A model generated the notes under the pieces. It did not search any database, had not been told where the DNA came from, and worked only from the letters and a program-made list of their open reading frames with translations. A stretch of DNA of 64,000 nt from Actinomycetaceae bacterium (GTDB lineage Bacteria; Actinomycetota; Actinomycetes; Actinomycetales; Actinomycetaceae). Within the stretch, counting starts at the first letter, position 1. Each line of letters opens with the position of its first letter. The stretch is taken from the NCBI GenBank assembly GCA_030527545.1, contig JAUNAP010000004.1:1-64000 (forward strand), in the 5' to 3' direction. A program made the translations under genes and the position numbers. This document shows, piece by piece, positions 2,795-54,456 of this stretch.

Positions 2795-5445
<2,651 letters not shown>

Positions 5446-52947: not shown

Positions 52948-53391
52948 CTACGCGAGCTCAGGGAACCAGATGGCAAGTTCGCGCTCTGCCGCGGCGCGTG
53001 AGTCCGAAGCGTGAATGACGTTTTCCACGCACCCGCTACCCCAGTCGCGGCCGAAATCACCGCGAATCGTCCCCGGATCGGCCGTCGTCGGCTGCGTGGC
53101 GCCCACGAGTGTGCGAGCCCCGGCGACAACCTGCTCACCGGCCAACGCAGCCACAACCATCGGTGCGGAGGCCATGTAGGAGGCTAATTCGGTAAAGAAA
53201 TGCTTCGAAGCGTGTTCGGCGTAGTGCTCACGCAGCGTCTGCTCGTCGGCGACGACGACCTTGAGTGCCGCGAGGCGATAGCCCTTACGCTCGAAACGCG
53301 CGAGGATCTCGCCGGTGAGTCCACGGCGATAGGCATCGGGCTTGATGAGGATAAGCGTGTGTTCGACGTTGGGGTCCAGTGCCTGAATCAT
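52948..53391 (-). CDS. ndk: Nucleoside diphosphate kinase
   Basis: Balances NTP pools by a ping-pong phosphotransfer. 147 residues. LILIKPDAYRRGLTGEIL at the start and the phospho-His127 in ENVIHASDS are clear. The ATG at 53391 has AAGGAG eight bases upstream. It lies 12 bases before smc on the same strand. Confidence 0.97.
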   Translation of the reverse strand: MIQALDPNVEHTLILIKPDAYRRGLTGEILARFERKGYRLAALKVVVADEQTLREHYAEHASKHFFTELASYMASAPMVVAALAGEQVVAGARTLVGATQPTTADPGTIRGDFGRDWGSGCVENVIHASDSRAAAERELAIWFPELA

Positions 53392-53412: not shown

Positions 53413-54102
53413 CTATTCGAGGCCGTTAGCGCAAGCATCGGCGATCGCAGCCAATGCCATCGAGGCTTCAACGCCCTCGGCTTCGACGAGCATGTTGTCG
53501 CCCGGTGCCAGTTTAAGTCCCATGAGAGCAAGCACGCTCGTCGCGTCCACGCCGTTGACCGTGACGCGCGCGTCGTAGTCGGAGGCCATACGGGCCAGCC
53601 GCGCCGCGGGTCTGGGGCCCAACAACTCGCTGCCGCCCCAGGCGACGTGTCGCGGCGCATAGGGATCATCGCGTTCGGGCTCTGGCGGCAGCGCGAGGAC
53701 GTCAACATCGAAGAACTGGACAGCCCCGGCAATCGCGCGCATGACAGCCTCGAGATTATCGCCCTGTTGGGCCGCTACTGCTCCGGCGATCGCGCCTTCC
53801 ACGAGAGGCCCGTGCCCCAAAGCGACATTCCCCTCGCCCCACTGATTGAGGAGCTGGTGCGCGGCAAGTTTCGCCGGCCCCATGTCGGCAAGAATGACAA
53901 TGCGTGCGTCCTGGCCGATGCGATGTGCCGCCTCGCTGCACGCGTCGGCGAGGTGGTCGAGCGCTCGCGAAAGCCCCTCGTCATGGCATCCACACGCCAC
54001 CAGGCAGACGTCGGGCGCCATGGGTGCCGCAACCTCGCATACTCCGCGCGCGAGTGTGTCGGATTGCGAGGCGATAACGAAGCCGATCGGCGCTAGTGCC
54101 AC
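53413..54102 (-). CDS. DhaM-like PTS EIIA domain joined to an HPr-like domain, both without the active His
   Basis: 229 residues from the GTG at 54102, chosen because AAGGGG lies six bases upstream. Residues ~6-125 resemble the DhaM EIIA domain (GFVIASQSDTLARG, DARIVILADMG, VEGAIAGAVAAQQG). The phosphoryl-accepting His of the SHS motif is Gln13 (SQS). Residues ~158-229 resemble HPr (PRPAARLARMASDYDARV, ATSVLALMGLKLAPGDNMLVEAEG). The His of LHARPA is Gly162 (LGPRPA). The fold signature is kept but neither phosphorylation site is. No dhaK, dhaL or ptsI genes are in the window. A regulatory or substrate-sensing role is possible; function unknown. Confidence 0.75.
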   Translation of the reverse strand: MALAPIGFVIASQSDTLARGVCEVAAPMAPDVCLVACGCHDEGLSRALDHLADACSEAAHRIGQDARIVILADMGPAKLAAHQLLNQWGEGNVALGHGPLVEGAIAGAVAAQQGDNLEAVMRAIAGAVQFFDVDVLALPPEPERDDPYAPRHVAWGGSELLGPRPAARLARMASDYDARVTVNGVDATSVLALMGLKLAPGDNMLVEAEGVEASMALAAIADACANGLE

Positions 54103-54186: not shown

Positions 54187-54456
54187 TTACTTGGCCTTCG
54201 TGTAGGTCAAGCAGGCTTCGTTGGCGTCGACTCGAACCGCGGGGGCCGAGCACACGAGCTGATGGTTGAACGTGCAGTCACCGCGTTGGCACGCACCGAC
54301 CTGCGCGTCGACCGTGGGCAGCCCTCCGAGGGTATCGAGGGCGATGAAGGTCGTGCAGCCGCCTTCACCCATCGTCATAGCAAAAGCCTGGCATCCGTCG
54401 TGGTTGAAAGCGCACGTCGTCGCTTGGCACTCGCTGACCTGAGGCATCGTCGTCAT
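54187..54456 (-). CDS. DUF1540 family cysteine-rich protein
   Basis: 89 residues with two copies of the DUF1540 module. Cysteines are at 10, 15, 22 and 34, and again at 56, 61, 69 and 82. Each copy has the C-x4-CxFNHxxxC core (CQATTCAFNHDGC and CQRGDCTFNHQLVC). Such proteins are small, probably metal-binding, and of unknown function. AAGGAGACAATC precedes the ATG. A hairpin follows the stop. It appears to be monocistronic. Confidence 0.85.
   Translation of the reverse strand: MTTMPQVSECQATTCAFNHDGCQAFAMTMGEGGCTTFIALDTLGGLPTVDAQVGACQRGDCTFNHQLVCSAPAVRVDANEACLTYTKAK

Follow-up and report, generated by a model that had tools for sequence, protein, structure and literature searches.

The active centre of EIIA(Man) lies at the C-terminal ends of strands, and an Asp and a Ser beside the His have a role in its catalysis; EIIB domains use Cys as phosphoacceptor. 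DhaM is the phosphodonor of the PTS-dependent dihydroxyacetone kinase, and in one of its forms (TIGR02364; L. lactis 3cr3 and 3ct6) an EIIA domain is followed by an HPr domain. In Crh, the catabolite repression HPr of Bacillaceae, His15 is replaced by Gln; Crh acts through CcpA binding and, when unphosphorylated, inhibits MgsA (PMC9631020).

Here we describe a DhaM-derived gene, gene X, located in a 64,000-nucleotide stretch of contig JAUNAP010000004.1 from an Actinomycetaceae bacterium (hereafter, the window). A first-pass annotation of the window had proposed that X encodes an EIIA domain and an HPr domain, both still folded, with Gln13 and Gly162 in place of the active His residues. Our literature searches, whose coverage of subscription journals was poor, turned up no publication describing a DhaM that lacks its His residues.

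Results

Gene X encodes an EIIA-HPr protein with neither phospho-histidine

The proposed domain assignment was confirmed at several levels. Pfam EIIA-man matched residues 7–120 of X (E 9e-7) and PTS-HPr (PF00381) residues 164–224 (E 2e-13). An AlphaFold model built from nine orthologues (mean pLDDT 80, pTM 0.56) matched DhaM 3cr3_C over 115 residues with an rmsd of 2.3, and also E. coli HPr 1poh (Z scores in Table 1), as expected if both folds are retained. A wrong domain assignment is ruled out by the Pfam, profile and fold matches. The NCBIfam DhaM model TIGR02364 gave X 53.6 bits, under the cut-off of 98.25 bits. The reading frame starts with GTG, with AAGGGG ahead of the start.

Table 1. 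Gene X, its domains and key residues, and the adjacent ndk gene, in window coordinates
Feature	Position	Strand	Basis
Gene X, two-domain EIIA(Man/DhaM)-HPr protein without either phospho-His, 229 aa	53413..54102	(-)	
EIIA(Man/DhaM)-like domain, residues 6–130	53713..54087	(-)	PF03610, model match 3cr3_C Z 15.6
Low-confidence interdomain linker, residues 131–148	53659..53712	(-)	pLDDT <50 at 131–144
HPr-like domain, residues 149–228	53419..53658	(-)	PF00381, 1poh Z 11.1
Gln13 at the EIIA phospho-His position (His in 34/34 other rows)	54064..54066	(-)	alignment
C37-G-C39-H40, where catalytic DhaM has A-G-G-T; all clade members share C-x-C-H	53983..53994	(-)	
Pro76, replacing the invariant Ser of the DhaM D-L-G-S motif (A/P/S in the clade)	53875..53877	(-)	
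Gly162 at the HPr His15 position	53617..53619	(-)	alignment
Ser189, HPr Ser46 equivalent, kept in 43/43 rows	53536..53538	(-)	
ndk, nucleoside diphosphate kinase, 21 bp downstream of X	52948..53391	(-)	PF00334

Both histidines are missing throughout one clade

Orthologues of X were searched for among 119 relatives and then in 213 genomes of the family Actinomycetaceae. The two substitutions first noticed in X stood up in a 43-row alignment: both His residues are missing in all nine rows of one clade and present in all 34 other DhaM rows, a joint pattern beyond coincidence. An order-wide search agreed, with both His residues in 17 of the 17 non-X places that could be parsed (18 were read, some overlapping the earlier set). 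The nine His-less genomes represent three genera and comprise the window's genome, N. anserum, six Varibaculum genomes and one Actinomycetaceae metagenome-assembled genome (MAG). Within the clade the EIIA site (end of strand 1, S-H-S in DhaM) is Q or V and the HPr His15 site is G/K/S/D; the HPr motif G-L-H-A-R-P reads L-L-G-P-R-P in X itself.

In the X tree a branch with support 100/98 separates the nine His-less proteins from all others, and an SMC protein tree, which includes partial rows and long branches, also groups the nine genomes (SH-aLRT 96). Since both trees group them, a single event followed by vertical descent is the simplest reading of the His co-loss. Counted among the six Varibaculum genomes is contig FQLW01000005.1, deposited under a Firmicutes name (Tissierella sp. 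Marseille-P2918); it bears an actinobacterial X and clusters with Varibaculum in the trees, and the record name looks wrong.

Gene X is under purifying selection, as judged from pairwise Nei-Gojobori dN/dS ratios of 0.04–0.26 (0.04–0.12 within Varibaculum, 0.26 between the two Nanchangia sequences); these are rough, as some dS values are high and the Nanchangia pair, with dS 1.2, is near saturation at synonymous sites. Pairs of catalytic DhaM gave 0.06–0.26. Such ratios are unlike those of neutral decay. Loss of partners and catalytic residues, together with a variable HPr site, is what a non-functional dhaM remnant would show after loss of dhaK and dhaL. We give this account almost no credence, however, given an open frame in nine of nine genomes from three genera, the predominance of synonymous substitutions, and new invariant residues in X (see below). 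The idea that X is a single decayed copy is ruled out by the nine intact orthologues and the low dN/dS. Thus, the suspected co-loss of the two His residues proved to be a conserved property of one clade, maintained under purifying selection.

The kinase genes are gone from the X locus

In His-bearing relatives the gene order is folC-dhaK-dhaL-dhaM-ndk-smc; the two genes between folC and dhaM were confirmed as Dak1 (dhaK) and Dak2 (dhaL) in one genome, G006. In all 13 His-bearing genomes checked, about 2 kb at most separates Dak1 from dhaM; in none of the nine His-less genomes is Dak1 so close. All six clade loci examined preserve the order X-ndk-smc; apart from ndk-smc the neighbours of X vary among genera and so point to no particular partner. 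Tree and synteny together identify X as the orthologue of the ancestral Actinomycetaceae DhaM from a dhaK-dhaL-dhaM-ndk-smc cluster. In the clade (Nanchangia, Varibaculum and the related MAG lineage) dhaK and dhaL are gone from this locus, while the dhaM-derived gene has been retained.

The absence of dhaK near X, already noted in the first-pass annotation, was verified for the window's genome: Dak1 was not found in this assembly (1.75 Mb, 81% complete), and Dak2 gave a sub-cut-off match only. N. anserum, the MAG and two Varibaculum genomes carry Dak1 elsewhere, adjoining a separate DhaM with the EIIA His. As His-bearing DhaM proteins coexist with X in several clade genomes, X is not needed as a phosphodonor there.

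In the second dha locus of N. anserum (L141, ~3115–4024; G001:C1:1698114–1699023) dhaK is split by a frame change and a TGA codon; given this split, dihydroxyacetone kinase may be lost in N. anserum too. Two Varibaculum genomes, G012 (L143, 2708–5152) and G256 (L144, 2966–5419), encode a fused DhaM-EI protein in which the EIIA SHS is kept. With no Dak1 in either genome and no adjoining dhaL, this fused gene is a second, separate orphan DhaM.

Between rnhA and X in the window lies a small ORF (54187–54456, minus strand) for a Cys-rich protein of 89 aa with a repeated C-x-F-N-H motif; its match to DUF1540 is sub-threshold (16.9 bits, cut-off 22.1). A conserved pairing of X with this ORF was considered and rejected: the ORF is missing at that place in N. 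anserum, where the rnhA-X gap is about 90 bp.

The EIIA pocket has been rebuilt

The AGGTDDG segment of DhaM has become C37-G/S-C39-H40-D-E-G in the clade. Eight of the nine clade rows lack the D-L-G-S Ser that every catalytic row has; the clade has also lost Gln27 and Ser47. Residues gained and invariant in the clade include C37, C39, H40, E42, T16 and R19, among others; of these, H40, C37 and C39 occupy the end of strand 2 and the loop after it, the expected place of the old active site. In six representative rows, the loops after EIIA strands 1–4, which should surround the former active centre, are 68% invariant, compared with 27% elsewhere in the domain. Of 125 shifts of the loop set along EIIA, only the true register reached such a value; this test was not blind, since the Cys motif was already known when the loops were defined from the model's DSSP.

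These data show that the EIIA pocket has been rebuilt, not eroded, and that no other part of the clade's EIIA domain is as well conserved. The HPr His site, unlike the EIIA pocket, is relaxed in the clade. On the HPr face, R164, P165, A166, A167 and S189 do not vary.

A tentative reading of this pattern, and a specific form of the one proposed in the Discussion, is that a PTS phosphocarrier, once its kinase partners had gone, lost both phospho-histidines and was turned into a metal- or thiol-based sensor, with the old phospho-His pocket converted to a Cys-x-Cys-His site that strong selection conserves in three genera. C37-x-C39-H40, with D41, E42 or D73, could bind zinc or iron or form a disulfide, and could in this way control partner binding. 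The joint appearance of two Cys and one His, invariant in the three genera and set where constraint on the EIIA domain is highest, points in this direction; fewer than four classical ligands are certain, however, and two close Cys and a His may serve another purpose.

PTS genes in the clade

The genome of the window encodes EI and a canonical HPr (G-L-H-A-R-P-A) on another contig (C8), outside the window, as a genome check for ptsI and ptsH confirmed. The first-pass annotation had also stated that no other PTS gene lies near X. This is true of the window's genome and fails for Varibaculum, where ptsH lies directly upstream of X and where, in one tested genome, a 695-aa protein with EIIA_2 and PTS_IIB domains (fructose-type) is also encoded upstream. 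No PTS gene was seen beside X in Nanchangia or the MAG. Inspected by eye, the EI-HPr region of N. anserum (L147, 6129–9153) has 1-phosphofructokinase and fructose PTS genes between the EI and HPr genes; in the corresponding region of the window's genome (L146, 4665–6809) EI and HPr stand side by side, without them.

The presence of EI and a normal HPr in the same genome, and of ptsH next to X in Varibaculum, raises the question of whether the phosphoacceptor has moved. Ordinary HPr would then phosphorylate His40 or Cys37/Cys39, which are clade-specific, invariant and located at the expected former active site, making X a one-step phosphorylation sensor. We regard this as improbable: the D-L-G-S Ser is lost in all but one of the clade rows, the HPr His is lost without replacement, and X is not accompanied by an EIIB, DhaK or DhaL acceptor.

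The gene order in Varibaculum would also fit a protein that uses its retained DhaM and HPr surfaces to dock on EI, HPr or a transporter and that damps PTS flux, the Cys/His cluster being incidental. The invariant HPr face is in keeping with such docking, yet those residues may be structural, the strongest constraint falls on the EIIA pocket, and the PTS neighbours are confined to Varibaculum among the loci described above; we therefore consider the proposal unlikely. Regulation through Ser189 is unlikely too, because HprK (PF07475) was not found in any of twelve genomes searched, with control genomes positive.

Discussion

We propose that X is probably a DhaM descendant that has given up phosphotransfer and now serves, with its rebuilt EIIA pocket, in binding or regulation rather than catalysis. 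A DhaM orthologue would have outlived the loss of its kinase partners dhaK and dhaL and, to judge from the missing residues, would no longer pass phosphate on. The rebuilt pocket (C37, C39, H40, D73) probably holds a ligand or a metal, or acts as a thiol switch, and the HPr domain may provide a docking surface. Binding of a partner, ligand or metal through this pocket is the most likely activity that we infer for X. Recycling of the DhaM-derived protein into a binding or sensing role is suggested because selection maintains X, with its new Cys/His cluster, despite the loss of both His residues and of the kinase.

Gene X offers a clean syntenic case of a component of an enzyme system outliving its pathway. 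At the same locus one clade has lost both active sites and a sister set has kept both, and comparing these matched orthologues offers a way to test how a phosphocarrier turns into a non-catalytic protein. Naming by similarity would label the X proteins DhaM phosphodonors, which is probably wrong.

The comparison with known systems is as follows. X is like the EIIA-HPr form of DhaM in domain order, fold and place before ndk-smc, and is orthologous to it by tree and synteny; it differs in having no phospho-His in either domain, in the loss of the D-L-G-S Ser, in the CxCH of its pocket and in the lack of dhaK and dhaL at its locus. The fused EIIA-HPr-EI forms of DhaM (~815–877 aa), found at other loci of Varibaculum and MAG genomes, share the EIIA and HPr domains with X; unlike X, they keep the EIIA SHS, carry EI and stand beside dhaK-dhaL in three of five genomes where this was read. 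With Crh, X shares the HPr fold, a replaced catalytic His (Gly162) and a kept Ser46 equivalent (Ser189); X differs in having two domains and G/K/S/D at the His site, and a search of its genomes for HprK found none. Given its other architecture and the failure to find HprK, X is not itself a Crh, and regulation of the Ser46 type is unlikely. The role proposed for X would be analogous to that of Crh, with a different pocket and without HprK, and Crh may be regarded as its nearest functional parallel.
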